NCBI GenBank assembly: GCA_022841915.1
Contig: JALHQN010000008.1
Coordinates: forward strand, 14,713 to 78,712
Reading direction: 5' to 3'
DNA from: Burkholderiales bacterium
GTDB taxonomy: Bacteria > Pseudomonadota > Gammaproteobacteria > Burkholderiales > WYBJ01
DNA: 64,000 bases
Shown: positions 24,196 to 34,785 of the stretch, one piece after another
How positions within the stretch are numbered: the first letter of the stretch is position 1
How the letters are laid out: each line of letters begins with the position of its first letter
Position numbers and translations under genes: made by a program
Notes under the pieces: model-generated
Databases searched by the model: none
Told to the model about the DNA's origin: nothing
Seen by the model: the letters and a program-made list of their open reading frames with translations, nothing else

Positions 24196-25617
24196 ATGCC
24201 GGTCTCGCCCTCGAGCGACCCCGCCCATCCCGACGGCCCGGCCCGCGCAGCGGCACGCTGGCTCGCCGACGCTGGCGATTTGACGCTGCCCGACGAAGTC
24301 ATCGATGCCGCACGCACCTGCCTCATCGACTGGTTCGCCTGCGTCATCGGCGGGCTGAGAGAACCCGTATCGACGCTCCTGCTGCCACGCATCCGCACGT
24401 GGTCGCCGACGGGAAGTGCTCCGCTGCTCGTCGGCGGCCGTGCCGCACCCTGCTTCGCCGCGCTCCTGCACGGCACAGCGGTGCATACCACCGACTTCGA
24501 CGATACGCATATCTGGACCGACGCCCACTTCAGCGGCCCCACCTGGGCGGCACTACTTGCCCGCATGAGTGGGGAGCAGCCGATCGACGACATGCGACTC
24601 GCTCGCGCATTCGTCGCCGGTTTCGAGACCGGCGCCAAACTCGGCGGACGCCGTCTCGGCCATGCCATGGTGCATCGAGGCTTCCAGGCCACGGCGATGC
24701 TCGGACGCCTCGCGGGCGCAGCCGCCTGTTCCGCGCTTGCCGGCCTCGATGCCGAGCGCATTGCCATGGCCTTGGCCCTGGCCGGCTGCCAGACGGCCGG
24801 GCTCTCGTCGGCCGCCGGGAGCATGATGAAGCCCTTCCAGGGCGGCAAGACGGCATTCGACGCCGTGATGGCCGCTGAACTGGCCGAGGACGGCTTCGAG
24901 GCCGATCCGCGCCTGTTCGAACCGGGCGGCGGCGCGGTGGGTGCACAACGCATCGGCGGCCTCGCACGCGCTTTCGTCCAGGACGGCTACGCCGAATTCG
25001 CGCAGCCGGACTACGCCGCCGGATGGGAGATCCTGCGCAATTCCACCAAGGCTTATCCCTGCCTGCACGGCCTCGGCCCGGTGATCGATGCCGCCCGCGA
25101 TCTGCATCCGCAAATCGCGGGCAGGCGCATCGCCCGGGTACGCGCCTTCGTCGGGCCGAGCATACCGAAGATCGCGCGCTACGATCGGCCGCGCACGTCG
25201 CACGAAGGGCGCTTCAGCGTGCAATACGTCGCTGCCCTCGGCTTGCTCGGGCATCGCTTCACGCCGGAAAACTTCGACCCGGCCGTCATGCACTCGTCAT
25301 CGGTCGATGACTTGGTGCGCAAGATCGAAATCGTCCCGACCGAAGGACGCAAGATGTACAACGCCGCCGTCGAGGTCACGCTGGACAGCGGTGCAGTGCT
25401 GCTCGCCGATGTCCCGCTCGGACGCGGCCACCCGGGACGCCCGCTCACGGCCGCCGAGATGGAAGAGAAGTTCCGCATGCTCGCCGAACCCGTGCTGCAC
25501 GCGCGCACTACGCAAGTGCTGAACGTGCTCGGTGAGTTTCCGGCCCGCGGCAGTATCGAAAAGGCGTTCGAGATCGTTCGCAGCGAACCGCTGCCGCTGT
25601 CCGGGCCGCTGGCCTGA
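24196..25617 (+). CDS. MmgE/PrpD family protein
   Basis: Protein of 473 residues of the 2-methylcitrate dehydratase/cis-aconitate decarboxylase superfamily, whose helical domain 1 and smaller domain 2 act on di- and tricarboxylates without an iron-sulfur cluster. Recognisable segments are DEVIDAARTCLIDWFACVIGG, TTDFDDTHIWTDAHFSGP (DD motif), HRGFQATAMLGRLAGAAA and STKAYPCLHGLGPVIDA. It is one of three such genes here and is followed 69 bp later by an enolase-superfamily gene, suggesting a joint acid-catabolic unit. The family is broad, so the substrate cannot be stated. Confidence 0.92.
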   Translation: MPVSPSSDPAHPDGPARAAARWLADAGDLTLPDEVIDAARTCLIDWFACVIGGLREPVSTLLLPRIRTWSPTGSAPLLVGGRAAPCFAALLHGTAVHTTDFDDTHIWTDAHFSGPTWAALLARMSGEQPIDDMRLARAFVAGFETGAKLGGRRLGHAMVHRGFQATAMLGRLAGAAACSALAGLDAERIAMALALAGCQTAGLSSAAGSMMKPFQGGKTAFDAVMAAELAEDGFEADPRLFEPGGGAVGAQRIGGLARAFVQDGYAEFAQPDYAAGWEILRNSTKAYPCLHGLGPVIDAARDLHPQIAGRRIARVRAFVGPSIPKIARYDRPRTSHEGRFSVQYVAALGLLGHRFTPENFDPAVMHSSSVDDLVRKIEIVPTEGRKMYNAAVEVTLDSGAVLLADVPLGRGHPGRPLTAAEMEEKFRMLAEPVLHARTTQVLNVLGEFPARGSIEKAFEIVRSEPLPLSGPLA

Positions 25618-25686: not shown

Positions 25687-26781
25687 ATGAAAATCACCCG
25701 AGTCGAACCCATACTCATACGCACGCCGATGTTGCTCGACGCCGCCAAGCCGCAAGCCGGCGGCGCGCCGAAGACCGACATCCATACGGTGCTGGTGAAA
25801 GTGGAAACCGACCAAGGCATTACCGGCTGGGGCGAAGCGTTCTCCAACGCAGGCTGGCAGAGCACGATCACGGCGATCGCACAGATCGTCGAACCTCGTG
25901 TGCTCGGAAAAGACCCGTGCAACATCGCGCAGATCCAGGCCGATCTGCACCGTGCGCTGTACAACACCGGCCGCAGCGGGCCCACGGTATTCGCGATTTC
26001 CGGGCTGGATATCGCCCTTTGGGATATCGCCGCCAAGCGCGCTGACATGCCGCTCTATCAGTTGCTCGGCGGCAGTGCGCGCACCACCTTGCCGGCGTAC
26101 GCGAGCCTGTTGCGCTACGGCGTGGCCGACGTCGTCGAACGCAAGACCCACGAAGCGATCGAGCGCGGCTATCGCTTCATCAAGCTGCACGAGAACAAGC
26201 CCGACATCATCCGCGCAGCCAAGCGAGCATGCGGCAACAAGGCCGCACTCATGGTGGATTGCTCCTGCCCCTGGACGGTCGACGAGGCGATCGCGGCAGC
26301 ACGGCAGCTTTCCGACCAAGACCTGGCGTGGCTGGAGGAACCGATCTACCCCCCCGACGACCATGCCGGTCTGGCACGCCTGCGCGCGGTGGCATCGATG
26401 CCTATCGCCGCAGGCGAGAACTGCTCCAACCTGATGGAGTTCAAGCGTCTGATGGAGGTGGGTGCCATCGGCATCGCGCAGCCGAGCATTACCAAAGTCG
26501 GCGGCGTCACCGAGATACGCAAGGTCTTTGCGCTGGGCGAAGCGCACGGCGTGGTGGTCGTGCCCCATTCCCCTTACTTCGGACCAGGCTTGATGGCATC
26601 GATACACGTGTGTGCCGCCGCGGCGCGGGAAATCCCGATCGAGCGCTACTACTGCGACTTCGCCGAAACCCCGTTCGGCACCCAGATCGACCCGGTCAAA
26701 GGCGAGTTCGCGGTACCGCAGAGTCCTGGCTTGGGAATGGATCCCGATGAAGCGATCGTGGCCCGCATGCGCGTCGCTTGA
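25687..26781 (+). CDS. Mandelate racemase/muconate lactonizing enzyme family protein
   Basis: Enolase-superfamily enzyme of 364 residues. Metal ligands are visible as Asp191 (MVDCS), Glu217 (WLEEP) and Glu244 (AGENC). The barrel also has FIKLHE (a KxH pair on strand 2) and a C-terminal VVPHSPYFGPG His region, pointing to the mandelate-racemase/acid-sugar-dehydratase branch rather than the cycloisomerase branch. GACGGAG precedes the start. It follows the MmgE/PrpD gene on the same strand and converges on the PAS-sensor gene. Likely role: dehydration or epimerisation of a hydroxy acid. Confidence 0.92.
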   Translation: MKITRVEPILIRTPMLLDAAKPQAGGAPKTDIHTVLVKVETDQGITGWGEAFSNAGWQSTITAIAQIVEPRVLGKDPCNIAQIQADLHRALYNTGRSGPTVFAISGLDIALWDIAAKRADMPLYQLLGGSARTTLPAYASLLRYGVADVVERKTHEAIERGYRFIKLHENKPDIIRAAKRACGNKAALMVDCSCPWTVDEAIAAARQLSDQDLAWLEEPIYPPDDHAGLARLRAVASMPIAAGENCSNLMEFKRLMEVGAIGIAQPSITKVGGVTEIRKVFALGEAHGVVVVPHSPYFGPGLMASIHVCAAAAREIPIERYYCDFAETPFGTQIDPVKGEFAVPQSPGLGMDPDEAIVARMRVA

Positions 26782-26925
26782 CGTCCAAGCAGCCGGTAGA
26801 GCGCCGCCCCTTGCGTACCCGCGGTGAGCACGATCGCCTGCAACTTGCCGCTGGTCCGCTCGCATCGGCGCGTAGCGGATCGGCGAGGCCGAAGCCCGCT
26901 GGACCTGCGCTGCGGTCTGCCGAGT

Positions 26926-29900
26926 TCAGCCGCTGCCGCGATGATCTTCCACCGCGCCGGCTGCGGCCTGAGAGCGCAGCGGCACGAGCATCTCGTCCAT
27001 CAGATGCTCCAGGCGCTGCGCTTGAACAAGAACCGTCGCGGAGACTTGCTGCATTTTCGGTTCCTCCGGAAACATCACGCGGACCAGTTCCGCCGTATGG
27101 CGCACCTGCGCGAGCCCGTCGGCATTCGCCGCTCCCAGCAGCCCGATGATCTGCGCACGACGTTGCTCCGCGATGACGAGCGCTTGCGCGGCATCGCGGC
27201 TTGCCGAGACATCTTCGAGACACCCGATCCGGCGCAAACGTGTTTCCCCGGCCGCCGGAACAAGGACGGCGGCGAAGCGCACGTAGCGGTACACGCCATC
27301 GGCGCGGCGCATGCGGAATTCCTCGTCGATGGGAACAGCCTCGCTCACCAGGCCTTCGTGTGCATGCCTCCAGGCGGTGCGATCTTCGGGATGGACGTAT
27401 TGGCTCAGGTCGAGATCCGAGCTTGCCGATCGATCGGCACCGAGCCACGCAAGACAAGCCCGATTGGCATACCCGTTGCCCGCCGCAGTCGAGACCCACA
27501 CCGGCGCCGGACAACGGTCGAGCAAGGCAGCGACGTCGTCGCAATGCGCTCGCAGTTCGACCTCCAGGCGCTTGCGCTCGTTGATGTCGATCGCACTGCT
27601 GAGGCTGCCTGACCATCTGCCTTGGTCATCGTATCGGGGCAGCACGGCATCCAGGATCCAGCGCTCGTGCCCGGCGGCGTCCCGCAGCCGATACTCGACG
27701 CAGGTCGGTTCGTCGCGCGGCGCCGTGGCTTCGAAGCGCCGACGCACCTCCTCCCTGTCGGCAGGATGCACATGCTCGAACCAGTCCGCCCCCACGCCCG
27801 TGCCGGCGAGGACTTCCCAGGCCGGACTTGCGAAGACACATCGACCGTTACCATCGAGCAGCCGCAGTGCGACCGGGGTGGCATCGCAGAGACCGCGAAA
27901 GAACGCCTCGGCCTCGCGCAGGGCGCCGATCTTCGCGTTGCGCTCGCCGACGTCCTGAAGGACGAATTGCACCGCACGCTCCGTCGCGGTTTCGTAGACT
28001 GCGACGCTCGCCTCCGCCTCCACCTCGCGCCCGTCGCAGGCCTTGAGTCGAGTGGTGAACCGCCGTGTTCCGGCCCCATCCTGCGCAAGCGCCCGCGCCG
28101 CGACCGTCATGGCCACGTCGGAATTCGCCGCAATCTGCAACAGGGGGATGCCGACGAGGGCGTCGGGATCCGTTGCAGCCAGCATGCTCGCTGCCGCCGC
28201 ATTGGCGAAAACGATCTTGTTCTCGCGTGCGATCAACAAGGGATACGGCAAGCTTGCCACGATCGCACGGTGGCGGCTTTCTTCGGCGCGCAGGGCGTCT
28301 TCGCCGCGCCGTCGCGCAGTGACGTCGACGGCGACACCGCACAGCGCCATACCTGCAGCGCCCGAATCCCGCGTGGCACACTTGAGCGCGACGAAGTGAT
28401 GCAGGCCGTCGTTGAGCTGCAGTGTCTCCTCGAACTGACGCACGCCCTCGGCGGCGAGCGCACGGGCATCGTTCTCGCGCATGCGCTCGGCAGCCGCCCG
28501 CGGGAACACCTGGAAATCGGTCTTGCCGTGCAATTGCTCGGGCGAAAAGCCGGTGAGGTCTGCGTACTCCCGGTTGGCGTAAAGGTAGCGTCCCTGGTCG
28601 TCCTTGAGCCAGAGGATCGCGGGTGCGTGATCCACGAGAGTGCTCAATGTCGCGAGCGCGCTGCGCATCGCATCATCGGCGCTCTTGCGCACGGTGACGT
28701 CGGCCGTGATGCCTGCGAGGTAACGCATGCGTTCGTGGCCATCGCATACCGCGATGCCACGATCACGCAACCATGCGATGCTGCCGTCTTCGCGCACGAC
28801 GCGATACTCCAGTTCGTACCCGCCTTCGGTACCTGCCGCGAGGAAGGCCTGGCGGACGCGCTCGCGGTCATCAGGGTGAACCGCCGCGATCCATTGTGCG
28901 AAATCTTCCAGCGGGATCGCGGGCGACAGACCGCGCAACATGCCCGCCTGCGGCGTCGCGTAGATGACGCGCGGCACACGCGGGTCGACGATCCACAGCC
29001 CTTCTTCCAGATGCTCCGCGAATACCTGAAGGCGCTCCGCGGCCTCCTGCAAGCGCGCCGTCCGGGCCGTTTGCTCCGTGACATCGTCCACGGTCAAGGC
29101 AAGCGCCGTCGCCGGCCCCGTGCCCGGGGCGATAGCCCGGCAGTCGATGCTCCAGATTCGCTCGGCCCCGCTTGCGTCGCGAACGCGGACATGGGCGTCT
29201 CGCGTTCCGCTGCGAAAGCGCAGGGTTTCTCGGGCGAGCGGTTCGATCGCAGCGAGCACGGCATGCACGCCCCCCGCGTCCCGCACCATCGCCTGCCAGC
29301 GGTCATTGGCGTTCACCACCCCGAGATCGGCGTCGAGCACGCACAGGCCTGCTGCCGCTGTACGGTACGCCTCGTCGAGCACCGCCGCCGTCTGCTGGCG
29401 CTCGTCCTGCGCTTGCTCGGCACAGCGGGCGAATTCGCGCTCTCGCAGCGCCGCGCTCTGCGCCTGCTCTGCGCTCAAGCGCTCGGTCAAGGCGTCGCGC
29501 TGCGCCCGCATTCGCTCGAATTCGATCTCCAGGCCTGCCGGATCGGCAGCAAGTTCCGCTTCCCTGCCCGATACGTCCTGAGCCGCAGCGCTTGCCAAGC
29601 CGCTCGCCTCGTCCAGGCTGGCTCGCAACGCGTCCGCTTCGACGCGCGCGGCGCGGACGGCCTCGGCTTGCGCCGTCACGTCGATGGCGCGGTCGACCAG
29701 GAGCAGCGCATCGCCCTCGAGCGGCCAGACTTCGAGCGGCTGACACATCCAGGTGCGCTGCTCGCCGGAGCGCGTCCATATCGTCCGCGTCTCGATGTCG
29801 CCGCCGTGCACCTTGTTGCGAAACGCCTTCAGCGCTGCGTCGAGTTCTCTCTCGGGTGTGCGCAGAACCTTGGTGAACCAAGTCTCGACGTCGGGAATGT

Positions 29901-30531
29901 CGGCACGCGAATACCCCGTGATCCGGGCGAACCCCTCGCTGACCTCCAGGACCCGAGCATCGAGATCGTAGGCGATCATCGGCACGGTGCTGGTGCGTAC
30001 CATCCTCAACGCTACTTCCTGCCACGGCGGCGCCGGCCGACCGTTGGACGAACTCGAGAAGGCCCGCAGGTTCCCCAGTTCCCGCGCGAGACGGTCCCGC
30101 TCGTGCTTGACGTTCGCGCCCTGCTTGGCGAGTCGATAGGTGCTGCCGGCGAAACCGAATGCAGCGACTGCGGCGAGCAGCAGCCCGCTTGCCAGAAGCG
30201 CGCTGCCGCGACCCTCGAAGAAACTCGGGCGCGCCCTCTGCGCGGGCGATGCTGTCGCCGGATCTGCGAGCGAAGCTCGCGGCTCCGCGGTCGCCCCCGG
30301 AAGCGAGCTTGCGGCCAGATCGCGCTGCTCCTGGGCCTCCCACACCTCGGCCGGTGTCATCGGCGCGGGCATGCGGCCGTCCTTGTATTCCTGCAGATAA
30401 CCCCGTGCAGCCTGCTGCAGCGTGTGCTGCTTGTTCGCCTCGCTGTGAAGGTAGGCATACCACCCGACCCCGGCAACCAATGCAAGGGCGATGATGATGC
30501 TGAACAAGACCCAACCTTCGTTGCGCCGCAT
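26926..30531 (-). CDS. Membrane-anchored multi-PAS sensor protein lacking an intact output domain
   Basis: Protein of 1201 residues. Two membrane helices (about 8-30 and 110-135) enclose a short periplasmic segment. A first PAS is followed by a coiled coil (about 300-390), then six more PAS/PAC modules to about residue 1120, recognisable by repeated GxxxYANRxYxxLTG-like and DVTxRKxx endings. The last 80 residues (RRAQIIGLLGAANADGL, then a QAQRLEHLMDEML helix) resemble a histidine-kinase dimerisation domain in which the His is absent, and no ATPase, GGDEF, EAL or methyl-accepting domain follows. Only 144 bp separate its stop from the converging gene. The start at 30531 gives MRRNEGWVLF. Possibly a scaffold or inhibitor of other kinases. 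Confidence 0.85.
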   Translation of the reverse strand: MRRNEGWVLFSIIIALALVAGVGWYAYLHSEANKQHTLQQAARGYLQEYKDGRMPAPMTPAEVWEAQEQRDLAASSLPGATAEPRASLADPATASPAQRARPSFFEGRGSALLASGLLLAAVAAFGFAGSTYRLAKQGANVKHERDRLARELGNLRAFSSSSNGRPAPPWQEVALRMVRTSTVPMIAYDLDARVLEVSEGFARITGYSRADIPDVETWFTKVLRTPERELDAALKAFRNKVHGGDIETRTIWTRSGEQRTWMCQPLEVWPLEGDALLLVDRAIDVTAQAEAVRAARVEADALRASLDEASGLASAAAQDVSGREAELAADPAGLEIEFERMRAQRDALTERLSAEQAQSAALREREFARCAEQAQDERQQTAAVLDEAYRTAAAGLCVLDADLGVVNANDRWQAMVRDAGGVHAVLAAIEPLARETLRFRSGTRDAHVRVRDASGAERIWSIDCRAIAPGTGPATALALTVDDVTEQTARTARLQEAAERLQVFAEHLEEGLWIVDPRVPRVIYATPQAGMLRGLSPAIPLEDFAQWIAAVHPDDRERVRQAFLAAGTEGGYELEYRVVREDGSIAWLRDRGIAVCDGHERMRYLAGITADVTVRKSADDAMRSALATLSTLVDHAPAILWLKDDQGRYLYANREYADLTGFSPEQLHGKTDFQVFPRAAAERMRENDARALAAEGVRQFEETLQLNDGLHHFVALKCATRDSGAAGMALCGVAVDVTARRRGEDALRAEESRHRAIVASLPYPLLIARENKIVFANAAAASMLAATDPDALVGIPLLQIAANSDVAMTVAARALAQDGAGTRRFTTRLKACDGREVEAEASVAVYETATERAVQFVLQDVGERNAKIGALREAEAFFRGLCDATPVALRLLDGNGRCVFASPAWEVLAGTGVGADWFEHVHPADREEVRRRFEATAPRDEPTCVEYRLRDAAGHERWILDAVLPRYDDQGRWSGSLSSAIDINERKRLEVELRAHCDDVAALLDRCPAPVWVSTAAGNGYANRACLAWLGADRSASSDLDLSQYVHPEDRTAWRHAHEGLVSEAVPIDEEFRMRRADGVYRYVRFAAVLVPAAGETRLRRIGCLEDVSASRDAAQALVIAEQRRAQIIGLLGAANADGLAQVRHTAELVRVMFPEEPKMQQVSATVLVQAQRLEHLMDEMLVPLRSQAAAGAVEDHRGSG

Positions 30532-30976: not shown

Positions 30977-31945
30977 ATGAACACATCACGATGGACCCGA
31001 TGGACGACACTGGGACTGCTTGCGGCGTCTTGCACCATGGCAAATGCGCAAGACTGGCCTCTCAAACCGGTGCGAATCATCGTGCCCTTCGGCGCCGGCG
31101 GCGGCACCGACATTCAGGCCCGCTTGCTTGCCAAGAACTTCTACGAAAGCATGAACCAGACGTTCCTGGTGGACAACCGCTCGGGTGCCGGCGGGATCAT
31201 CGGAGCCGAGCTCGCCGTGCGATCGCCCGCCGACGGCTACACCATACTCTTCACCACCGCATCGATCGCCGTCAACGTCACCCTCTATGGCAAGCGGGTG
31301 AAGTTCGATCCCCTCAAAGATCTCACGCCCGTGAGCTGGATCTCCTCGACACCACTGGTCCTGGTCACCCATCCGAGCGTGCCGGTGAAATCGGTGCAGG
31401 AACTCGTGGCCCTTGCCAAGCGCACCGGCAAGATGACCGCTGCCTCGAACGGGCCGGGGACGACGAGCCATCTCTCCATCGAGATGCTCAAGCAGGCGAC
31501 CGGCATCGATATCGTGCACGTCCCGTACAAGGGCGGCGGGCCGTCGATTGCGGCGCTCGTCGGCGGCGAAACCGACTTCCTGTTCTCGACCGGCCCCGTG
31601 GCTGCGGCCCAGAGAAAAGCCGGCCGGGTGCGCGCGCACGCGGTCACGACCGCGAAGAAGTCTTCCGCCTTCCCGGATCTGCCGACGATGAGTTCGATCT
31701 ACCCCGGATTCGAATCGGACAACTGGTATGCCATGTTCTTTCCCGCCGGCACGCCAAAGCCGATCGCGGACAAGCTCAATGCCGAGATCAAGAAGGCGGT
31801 CAAGTCCAAGGACATCGCCGAGTTCATGGCGCGTGAGGCGCTCGATGTCGTCGTGAGTTCACCCGAGGAACTGCAAGCCAACTTCAAGCGCGAAATCGCG
31901 CGTTACGAGAAAGTCATCAGGGCAGGCAACATCACGCTGCAATAG
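30977..31945 (+). CDS. Bug family (TctC) tripartite tricarboxylate transporter receptor
   Basis: Receptor of 322 residues: signal peptide ending near CTMANAQ, then WPLKPVRIIVPFGAGGGTD, DNRSGAGGIIG, ADGYTILF and VPYKGGGPS. AAGGA at 30964-30968 precedes the ATG. It stands alone on the plus strand and is followed by a GC-rich hairpin. The neighbouring enolase-superfamily gene is on the opposite strand, converging on it. Confidence 0.95.
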   Translation: MNTSRWTRWTTLGLLAASCTMANAQDWPLKPVRIIVPFGAGGGTDIQARLLAKNFYESMNQTFLVDNRSGAGGIIGAELAVRSPADGYTILFTTASIAVNVTLYGKRVKFDPLKDLTPVSWISSTPLVLVTHPSVPVKSVQELVALAKRTGKMTAASNGPGTTSHLSIEMLKQATGIDIVHVPYKGGGPSIAALVGGETDFLFSTGPVAAAQRKAGRVRAHAVTTAKKSSAFPDLPTMSSIYPGFESDNWYAMFFPAGTPKPIADKLNAEIKKAVKSKDIAEFMAREALDVVVSSPEELQANFKREIARYEKVIRAGNITLQ

Positions 31946-32355: not shown

Positions 32356-33477
32356 CTACACGGCCAAATCCAGGATGCCCGCCTTCGGGGTCAAGCCCAG
32401 ACCCGGCCCCTGCGGCAGCGCAACCCAACCTTGCGCCGGCGCCGCCGCGCCGTCGAACAGCGTCTCGCAGATGCGCCATCCGCCGAGGTGGAACTCCACG
32501 CGGCCCCCGTTCGGCACGCCCGCATGCAGATGCATGTTGAGGTGCGGATAGTTGCCGCCCATTTCGAGCTGGATGTTGAAGGCCTGGGCCAGCGCCGCTG
32601 CACGCAACCCGCCGGTGAATCCGCCGATGTCGCGCACGTTGGGCTGCGCGATGTCGATCGACTCGTTGAGGAGGTACTCGCGCAAGTTCGAGATGTCGGA
32701 AGTCCCCATGCTGCCCGCGGCGATGGGGATGCTCGTCGCGCGGCGCAACTGTGCCATCAGGCGCGGGTCGGCCTGCAGGATGGGATCTTCGAACCAGGCG
32801 AGACCATAGGGCTCGACGAGCTTCGCCAACCGGATCGCCTGGGTGAGCTTCGCGTTCTTGTTCGCGTCCATCATCAACGTGAGCGTGTCGCCCAGCGCCT
32901 CACGCACATGCCGCACGCGCGCCGCATCCTCCCGGATGTCCTCATCGGTGGGCTCGCCGTACATGTAGTTGCTCGGGTTCGCTCCGGAGGCGACCACCAT
33001 CTTGAGCTGCGTATGTCCCTCGGCCATCAGTTGCCGACCGACCTCGACGAGTTCCTCGCGGCTGTAGCGGGGCAGACCGAACGTGATGTAGGTCGGACAT
33101 TTGTCGCGTGCGCCGCCGAGCAGTTTCCAGATCGGCTGTCCGAACAGCTTGCCCTTGATGTCCCAGAGCGCGATGTCGATCAGACTTGCGGCACAGGACC
33201 ACACCCCCATGTAGAGCTTGTTGGCGAGTTTCACGGCGAGCATCGTGCGCGCGGCGTCTGTGCGCAAGGGATCCATGCCGGCGAGCACATCCTTCGCTTC
33301 GCGATTGATGAACTCTGCGATGCTGTAGCGCAGCGGATAGGCTGCGAACGCATGCCCCTTCAACCCGTCGTCGGTCTCGATCTCGACGAAGGTCACGAGC
33401 GCGTGCTGCGTCTCGCGAATCAACGGAAACTCGTAGGGCACGCGCAGCGTCCAGGCGGTCGTCTTGGCGATTTTCAT
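32356..33477 (-). CDS. Mandelate racemase/muconate lactonizing enzyme family protein with altered third metal ligand
   Basis: Enolase-superfamily enzyme of 373 residues starting MKIAKTTAWTLRVPYEFPL. The first two ligands are visible as the Asp of LMMDANK and the Glu of WFEDP, but the third position, normally AAGE, reads IAAGSMGTSD, so Glu is replaced by Ser unless a neighbouring Asp compensates. The strand-2 lysine is in QLKMVVASG and no second lysine is two residues away. The substrate is unknown. The gene is in line with a Bug gene upstream on the same strand (125-bp gap), so the two may be co-expressed. Confidence 0.88.
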   Translation of the reverse strand: MKIAKTTAWTLRVPYEFPLIRETQHALVTFVEIETDDGLKGHAFAAYPLRYSIAEFINREAKDVLAGMDPLRTDAARTMLAVKLANKLYMGVWSCAASLIDIALWDIKGKLFGQPIWKLLGGARDKCPTYITFGLPRYSREELVEVGRQLMAEGHTQLKMVVASGANPSNYMYGEPTDEDIREDAARVRHVREALGDTLTLMMDANKNAKLTQAIRLAKLVEPYGLAWFEDPILQADPRLMAQLRRATSIPIAAGSMGTSDISNLREYLLNESIDIAQPNVRDIGGFTGGLRAAALAQAFNIQLEMGGNYPHLNMHLHAGVPNGGRVEFHLGGWRICETLFDGAAAPAQGWVALPQGPGLGLTPKAGILDLAV

Positions 33478-33602: not shown

Positions 33603-34580
33603 TCACATCTTCTGCAATCCCATGCTCTTGAGCACTTTCGCGAAGCGCGCCACCTCGCTCTCGACGTAGTCCGCAAGCGCCTGCGGGGTGCTCGGCTCGG
33701 GATCGAAGCCGACCGGCACGAGGCGCGCTCGAATCTCCGGTGAGCGCAGGGCAGCGGCCACCTCCACGTTGAGCCGGTCGATGATGGCCGCAGGCGTTCC
33801 TTTCGGAACCACCAGCGTGTTCCACGAATTCGCCTCGTAACCCGGATAGCCCGACTCGGCGATCGTCGGCGTGCCGGGCAACGCGTCGCTGCGTTTGGCC
33901 GTGGTGACCGCGATCGCGCGCACCTTGCCGGCCTTTGCCGGCCCCTGTATCCCCGGTATGGTCGAGAACAGGAACGAGATGTGGCCTCCTAGCAGATCGC
34001 TCGTGGCCGGCCCCGACCCCTTGTAGGTGATGTGCGTCATCTCGATGCCGGTCATCTGCTTGAACATCTCTCCCGCGATATGGCCGCCGGAGGCCACGCC
34101 TGGAGAACCGTAATCGACCTTGCCCGGATTCGCCTTCACGAAGGCGACCACATCGCGCGCCGTCTTCACCGGAATCGAGGGATGTGCGCTAAGCGCATAA
34201 GGTTGCTTCGCCAGCATCGACACCGGCGCGAAGTCGCGCTTGAAGTCGTAGGGCAGCTTCGCGCGCACGTTGGGAATCACCGCGAGCGTGGTGACGGTGG
34301 CCAAGAACAACGTATAGCCGTCGGCAGGCGCTTTTGCAGCGATGTCCGCGCCGATGGTGGTGCTCGCTCCGGCACGATTATCGACGATCACCTGCTGCCC
34401 CAAGCGCTGCGACAAGGCTTCGGCCACGACGCGCCCGATCACGTCGCTGCCACCGCCGGGGGGATACGGCACGATCAGCCGAATCGGTTTCGTCGGATAA
34501 ACGCTCTGCGCGTAAGCGGGCGCACCGCACAGGCAGCAAGCGGCGGCAACGGCCACCACGGTCTCGAGTTTCCTGGACAA
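33603..34580 (-). CDS. Bug family (TctC) tripartite tricarboxylate transporter receptor
   Basis: Receptor of 325 residues. TTG at 34580 is the likely start, with AGGAGGAG seven bases upstream, giving a compact signal peptide (LETVVAVAAACCLCGAPAYAQ); a longer frame to 34688 would bury the signal behind a basic tail. Motifs: YPTKPIRLIVPYPPGGGSD, DNRAGASTTIG, ADGYTLF and ITYKGSGPA. It precedes the enolase-superfamily gene on the same strand, which supports a substrate-uptake role for that pathway, and is divergent from a small lipoprotein gene. Confidence 0.93.
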   Translation of the reverse strand: MSRKLETVVAVAAACCLCGAPAYAQSVYPTKPIRLIVPYPPGGGSDVIGRVVAEALSQRLGQQVIVDNRAGASTTIGADIAAKAPADGYTLFLATVTTLAVIPNVRAKLPYDFKRDFAPVSMLAKQPYALSAHPSIPVKTARDVVAFVKANPGKVDYGSPGVASGGHIAGEMFKQMTGIEMTHITYKGSGPATSDLLGGHISFLFSTIPGIQGPAKAGKVRAIAVTTAKRSDALPGTPTIAESGYPGYEANSWNTLVVPKGTPAAIIDRLNVEVAAALRSPEIRARLVPVGFDPEPSTPQALADYVESEVARFAKVLKSMGLQKM

Positions 34581-34785
34581 TTTTCCACTCCTCCTTGGCT
34601 TGGATCCTGTCCGCTTCGCACCGACAGGCCTTCTTCGAGCCGCTCTTTTACCTCGAAACTGGCGATTCGCACAATTTTGGTGGAACATGAAGGCCGGCTG
34701 TACCTACGCAGTGCCTCCCTGAACCTGTGTACGTAGCCGACCGTGCCAACCCGTGGTTCCCCATACACGCATTCCGGATCGAACG

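Follow-up and report, generated by a model that had tools for sequence, protein, structure and literature searches.

A PAS-array protein conserved in a Burkholderiales genus looks like a kept pseudo-histidine kinase lacking the phospho-acceptor histidine and the ATPase domain

Gene and domain layout

The window, that is, the whole stretch of 64,000 nucleotides analyzed here, belongs to a Burkholderiales genome (G000) and encodes a putative PAS-array pseudo-histidine kinase of 1201 residues on its minus strand (26926..30531; all features of the protein given below are on this strand). The gene runs from ATG to TGA with no internal stops, as the original prediction had stated for its 1201 codons, and both amino acid strings quoted there are present in the translation. 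The frame and the start are common to the orthologues found in three further genomes (G001, G002, and G003), and all four proteins begin with MRxN.

Two hydrophobic helices lie near the N-terminus, at about residues 7-27 (30451..30513, hydropathy maximum 2.30) and 112-132 (30136..30198, maximum 2.07). The loop between them (about residues 31-110, 30202..30441) is poorly conserved, with 49, 41, and 36% identity to the three orthologues, and is presumably periplasmic; the protein beyond the loop and the membrane helices is presumed to be cytoplasmic. In the whole protein, the only Pfam models above cut-off were PAS models, and PAS_8 was found in seven stretches. The description of a seven-PAS membrane sensor holds. 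When the PAS regions were scanned singly, five of the seven (PAS3 to PAS7) exceeded a Pfam cut-off. The PAS1 region (residues 171-290, 29662..30021) scored 22.5 bits against a cut-off of 22.6 for PAS, 0.1 bit short, and is followed by a variable linker (residues 291-385, 29377..29661; 47, 47, and 43% identity to the orthologues) that is probably a coiled coil. PAS2 (residues 386-490, 29062..29376) gave a sub-threshold PAS_4 match (19.1 vs. 23.1 bits). The others are PAS3 (residues 491-615, 28687..29061; PAS_3, 65.1 bits), PAS4 (616-740, 28312..28686; PAS_4, 67.5 bits), PAS5 (741-868, 27928..28311; PAS, 35.2 bits), PAS6 (869-995, 27547..27927; PAS_3, 47.1 bits), and PAS7 (996-1117, 27181..27546; PAS_3, 44 bits).

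The last 84 residues after PAS7 (1118-1201, 26929..27180) form a DHp-like two-helix tail, which no Pfam family claimed at cut-off and after which no ATPase domain occurs. When the tail was aligned without gaps to intact kinases, a degenerate H-box fell at residues 1133-1139 (27115..27135), with Ala1134 (27130-27132) at the acceptor position.

Genes of the mandelate racemase/muconate lactonizing type (enolase superfamily) flank the sensor gene at 25687-26781 (+) and 32356-33477 (-), and an MmgE/PrpD gene lies at 24196-25617, suggesting a catabolic neighbourhood. No terminator-like or promoter-like pattern was found in 26700-27000. The window also contains genes for TctC-type solute receptors at 30977-31945 (+) and 33603-34688 (-), and a TctC receptor gene occurs some kilobases from the sensor gene at each of the four loci. 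Because the 6.2 Mb genome G000 has at least 150 TctC matches (150 scored among 386 candidates), a nearby TctC gene is uninformative about a partner. The adjoining genes encode no obvious partner, and a conserved neighbour was rejected as a candidate, since the neighbours differ across all four loci.

Distribution and the shared C-terminal end

The genus sample consisted of four draft assemblies with a completeness of 87-99%. All four genomes carried the gene, and the orthologues of G001, G002, and G003 were 64, 58, and 55% identical to the window protein. The three complete C-terminal ends (window, G001, and G003) stop at the same place and lack an ATPase domain; the contig of G002 ends 50 residues into the tail. 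An orthologue with an intact HisKA/HATPase end was found in none of the genus genomes. The original prediction that no ATPase domain follows the tail was borne out both by Pfam and by the map of the locus: the convergent gene of the enolase superfamily, which ends at 26781, is only 144 bases away from the stop codon, so no ATPase remnant is possible downstream, and in G001 at most 8 bases separate the stop from the end of its convergent neighbour. In contrast, all 59 HisKA matches checked in the genome of the window (64 listed) had an in-frame HATPase_c no more than 1.2 kb away; this genome has 57 DHp domains above cut-off. The truncation goes back to the ancestor of the genus and has been kept. 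Because its same-genus relatives end alike, the sequence resembles a retained pseudo-kinase rather than a damaged gene.

When 399 genomes of the order were searched with a profile made from residues 1-300, four matched over its entire length, and all four belong to the same genus. The N-terminal half of the family was absent from the other 395, three of which showed a match to the PAS1 region only; these PAS1 relatives are one hybrid kinase and two GGDEF-EAL proteins. In a class sample of 369 genomes, the single match was the window's own genome, and residues 1-300 had no match in 72,556 plasmid records. A scan of genome contigs returned four loci with generic PAS similarity only.

The array varies by whole domains. 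G002 and G003 lack PAS2, and G003 also lacks PAS6; each absence is an in-frame, domain-sized alignment gap, and the four species have 7, 7, 6, and 5 PAS units. All four have the N-terminal portion that includes PAS1, and all end in PAS7 and the tail (in G002, as far as the contig end). These four versions constitute a natural deletion series. These changes of PAS2 and PAS6, which leave the frame unbroken, are seen when L043:1-3165 and L044:8028-10898 are compared with window positions 27547-27927 and 29062-29376.

The tail resembles a DHp domain without the phospho-histidine

Pfam gave no match to HisKA or HATPase_c in the whole protein or in the last 85 residues at E-values up to 10, and a HisKA scan of the window's own genome had no match at the place of the tail. 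With the tail alone, Pfam matched just CP_ATPgrasp_2 (E 0.021; 14.3 bits vs. a cut-off of 32), which was discarded as chance. NCBIfam gave NR(II), below its cut-off (E 0.047, residues 1138-1186). Neither the Pfam nor the NCBIfam scans thus revealed any output domain there, recognized or hidden.

The tails were also scored with a HisKA profile made from 30 DHp domains of G000. The window tail scored 18.6 bits, a value reached by none of 3000 shuffles, and the G001 tail 16.8 bits (2 of 3000 shuffles as high); the reversed tails, used as a second control, scored 3.9 and 1.1 bits. Shuffles preserve composition but not the helix pattern. The G003 tail gave 0.7 bits, which is not significant (385 of 3000 shuffles as high). 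The HisKA search that the original prediction had proposed was therefore positive for two of the three complete tails with this profile and negative with the Pfam model. In hhalign, an alignment of the four tails matched the HisKA profile with P 5e-5 and a probability of 67%.

In 300 genomes of the order, a tail profile matched eight non-orthologue genomes at E up to 0.001. The three best matches (E 3.8e-5 to 5.6e-5) fall on the DHp domains of kinases that carry the motif HELRNPLAPI. A further match, L104, appears to be an NtrB-like DHp, whereas the remaining four, L103, L105, L106, and L107, are not kinase-like and were taken as chance. The tail aligns without gaps over 72 columns (full-length tails) to the DHp domains of L100, L102, and L078; with two kinases that belong to a different family within the order the alignment reads LLRVLFANEPRIRQTSEVISRQVAHMTHLVDDLL against LVRVMFPEEPKMQQVSATVLVQAQRLEHLMDEML, and L078 is a hybrid kinase of the same genus. 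The column of the phospho-acceptor histidine holds Ala1134 in the window protein and A, S, and A in G001, G002, and G003, and most of the remaining H-box (ELRNP) is likewise replaced. The claim of a DHp-like tail that has lost its phospho-histidine agrees with these results and with the 18.6-bit score. The best non-self match of the tail profile within the genomes was an NtrB-like kinase (E 0.118 in G000, 0.05 in G001), which agrees with the NR(II) result but is too weak to name it as a partner.

AlphaFold2 with a single sequence performed poorly on 212 residues (mean pLDDT 57). The tail was folded alone afterwards and was predicted as a hairpin of helices 1109-1153 and 1158-1198, whose pLDDT averages 85.5 and reaches 95-97 across the 40 residues in the middle. 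The 19 best PDB chains found by Foldseek with this hairpin were all histidine kinases (four proteins, mostly CpxA), with E-values of 0.11 to 0.85. In VIA-align, the best Z (10.0) belonged to an Snf7 chain, ahead of CpxA (8.8), and most rows were unrelated helical hairpins, so this method gives no verdict on DHp membership. With Foldseek E-values above 0.1 and similar VIA-align Z for unrelated hairpins, the fold alone is no proof of descent.

Selection on the protein

We calculated dN/dS for 12 regions by the Nei-Gojobori method. Between G000 and G001, the values ranged from 0.12 (PAS4) to 0.57 (linker), and the tail had 0.32 in this pair, 0.26 against G002, and 0.37 against G003. Purifying selection is seen in nearly every region, the tail included. 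The first membrane helix, with just 30 codons, gave 1.0 against G003, and for the loop the value against G002 was 0.81; dS was about 0.5-1.6 (infinite for one region against G003), so single values are rough. Together with the common end of the three complete sequences, these ratios uphold the proposal that the gene is maintained, and a protein whose kinase output is lost while the gene is kept is supported. PAS1 is the most conserved region, with 80, 77, and 72% identity to the orthologues, ahead of the tail, which falls to 47% in G003.

Within the tail, the H-box diverged faster than the rest between G000 and G001 (2/7 identical vs. 52/65, p 0.009) and between G001 and G002 (1/7 vs. 31/42, p 0.005), as expected if the helices are selected and catalysis no longer is. 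G000-G002 and G002-G003 showed this as a trend only (p 0.09 and 0.10), and G000-G003 (3/7 vs. 32/65, p 1.0) and G001-G003 (3/7 vs. 35/65, p 0.70) had no faster drift; the six pairs are not mutually independent.

Comparison with known systems

Intact hybrid kinases are among the closest systems. Residues 869-1184 align colinearly (E 1.5e-26) with a PAS-HisKA-HATPase-REC kinase of the same genus, and the window protein shares with such kinases the PAS-PAS-DHp order (L078) and the DHp subtype with HELRNPLAPI. L078 and L101 have this architecture, and no PAS was reported in L100. Pfam detected HisKA, HATPase_c, and Response_reg in L100 and L101 (L102 was not among the proteins scanned). Unlike the window protein, L078, L101, and L100 keep the histidine, the ATPase domain, and the receiver domain.

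Proteins that have lost parts of the kinase core are known. As described in two papers (PMC4211667, PMC5361649), Caulobacter DivL has a DHp with Tyr in place of the phospho-histidine, and the Magnetospirillum protein has Ala; the ATPase domain of DivL is dispensable for activity, divergent orthologues often lack DHp-CA, and R553, three residues past the acceptor, is required for DivK binding. The membrane anchor, the multiple PAS domains, and the DHp-like region without histidine are all present in our protein. Judged by description only, Caulobacter DivL differs in keeping its ATPase domain and docking residues, whereas the window protein has neither ATPase domain nor H-box. The ChrS pseudokinase of Corynebacterium glutamicum also has no working ATPase domain and still influences a second kinase system; it arose by a laboratory-evolved frameshift and retains its histidine (PMC9491836), whereas the window protein is natural and has lost it. 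In the RetS-GacS pair, one sensor kinase regulates another by heterodimerization (PMC12189002), but RetS is described as a hybrid kinase that also takes phosphate from GacS and dephosphorylates it, and domains for these reactions are absent here. The archaeal non-enzymatic proteins resembling histidine kinases (PMC5847659) share the N-terminal PAS/GAF sensors and the C-terminal HisKA-like region without an ATPase domain, but keep the conserved histidine that the window protein lacks.

The protein is a lineage-specific variant of this known pseudo-histidine-kinase theme (DivL, RetS, ChrS, and the archaeal "incomplete" kinases). Less usual are the loss of both the histidine and the ATPase domain and an array of 7, 7, 6, or 5 PAS units between conserved ends. 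Full-text searches of open papers listed none recognizable as a description of the present family, and few bacterial two-component pseudokinases have been studied so far (PMC5361649). A conserved pseudokinase without histidine and ATPase domain would make it possible to ask what a DHp hairpin and a PAS array do without phosphotransfer.

Possible modes of action

Because the acceptor and the ATPase domain are both absent, kinase activity by known chemistry is impossible. The original prediction, which these results support in part, had suggested inactive heterodimers with another kinase or a scaffold; both are candidate roles. We tentatively favour, at somewhat under an even chance, a membrane-anchored pseudo-histidine kinase that retains the hairpin for dimerization and influences an intact kinase through contact. 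The sequence comparisons support that the C-terminal part descended from a PAS-PAS-HisKA module as in common hybrid kinases, and that the ATPase domain was lost and the acceptor box rewritten in what is probably a still recognizable DHp hairpin. The hairpin and PAS contacts would hold a dimer at the inner membrane, where the cytoplasmic array may sense one or more ligands. A change of shape would then reach an intact kinase by direct contact, in mixed dimers or side by side through PAS or DHp surfaces, and would raise or lower its activity with no phosphate passing through the PAS-array protein. Precedents exist for non-catalytic kinases that affect another kinase (DivL, the ChrS pseudokinase) and for heterodimers of kinases (RetS-GacS). 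Several results stand against this model: PAS1 and not the tail is most conserved, so contact may be made elsewhere than through the tail; no partner is evident nearby, and the four neighbourhoods differ; the G003 tail has no DHp score, and the two pairs G000-G003 and G001-G003 lack faster H-box drift; VIA-align ties the hairpin with unrelated ones; and the truncated form of ChrS showed no two-hybrid interaction (PMC9491836).

The chief rival, possible although rather unlikely, is a homodimeric scaffold or antenna in which the DHp remnant only dimerizes and output goes through PAS1 or the PAS array to non-kinase partners such as cyclases. The higher identity of PAS1 (72-80%, vs. 47% for the G003 tail), the variable array between conserved N- and C-terminal ends, and the occurrence of PAS1 relatives in a hybrid kinase and two GGDEF-EAL proteins all point this way, but ligand binding would explain PAS conservation equally well. 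Another proposal, which we regard as quite doubtful, is that PAS1, next to the membrane, hands the signal on to partner sensor proteins, with PAS-to-PAS contact alone as output. A hybrid kinase would then have become a purely structural PAS antenna, losing catalysis and acceptor box before the genus diversified and leaving the array free to change length by whole PAS units.

Docking of a response regulator on the DHp remnant, which would read or sequester its phosphorylated form, is improbable. The model is DivL, described as a membrane-linked multi-PAS pseudokinase that binds DivK~P by a docking module and needs its PAS domains for specificity; the position of R553, however, is A, N, G, and G in the four orthologues, and the whole H-box drifts in two pairs. 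It is this lack of conservation of the docking-box residues that makes the reading less likely.

That the tail is a new helical output or dimerization element with only the look of a DHp is very unlikely: the silence of Pfam HisKA, Foldseek E-values all above 0.1, and the four of eight genome matches that are not kinase-like would fit it, but the gap-free 72-column alignment to real DHp domains, the shuffle (0/3000) and reversed-tail controls, and the three top genome matches, all DHp, argue against it. Least credible is a recent truncation drifting toward a pseudogene, for although the DHp signal is gone from the G003 tail and whole PAS domains are absent in two orthologues, the frames are intact in four species at 55-64% protein identity (in G002 to the contig end), the domain losses preserve the frame, and the dN/dS values, which lie at 0.12-0.57 across the 12 regions in the pair G000-G001, already speak against drift.

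Elsewhere in G000, contig C7 encodes another multi-PAS membrane protein (L046:5678-9103; 1142 residues) with MASE4. It has HisKA_2 above cut-off and an ATPase match under the HATPase_c cut-off (21.1 bits), and may be an ordinary HisKA_2 kinase.
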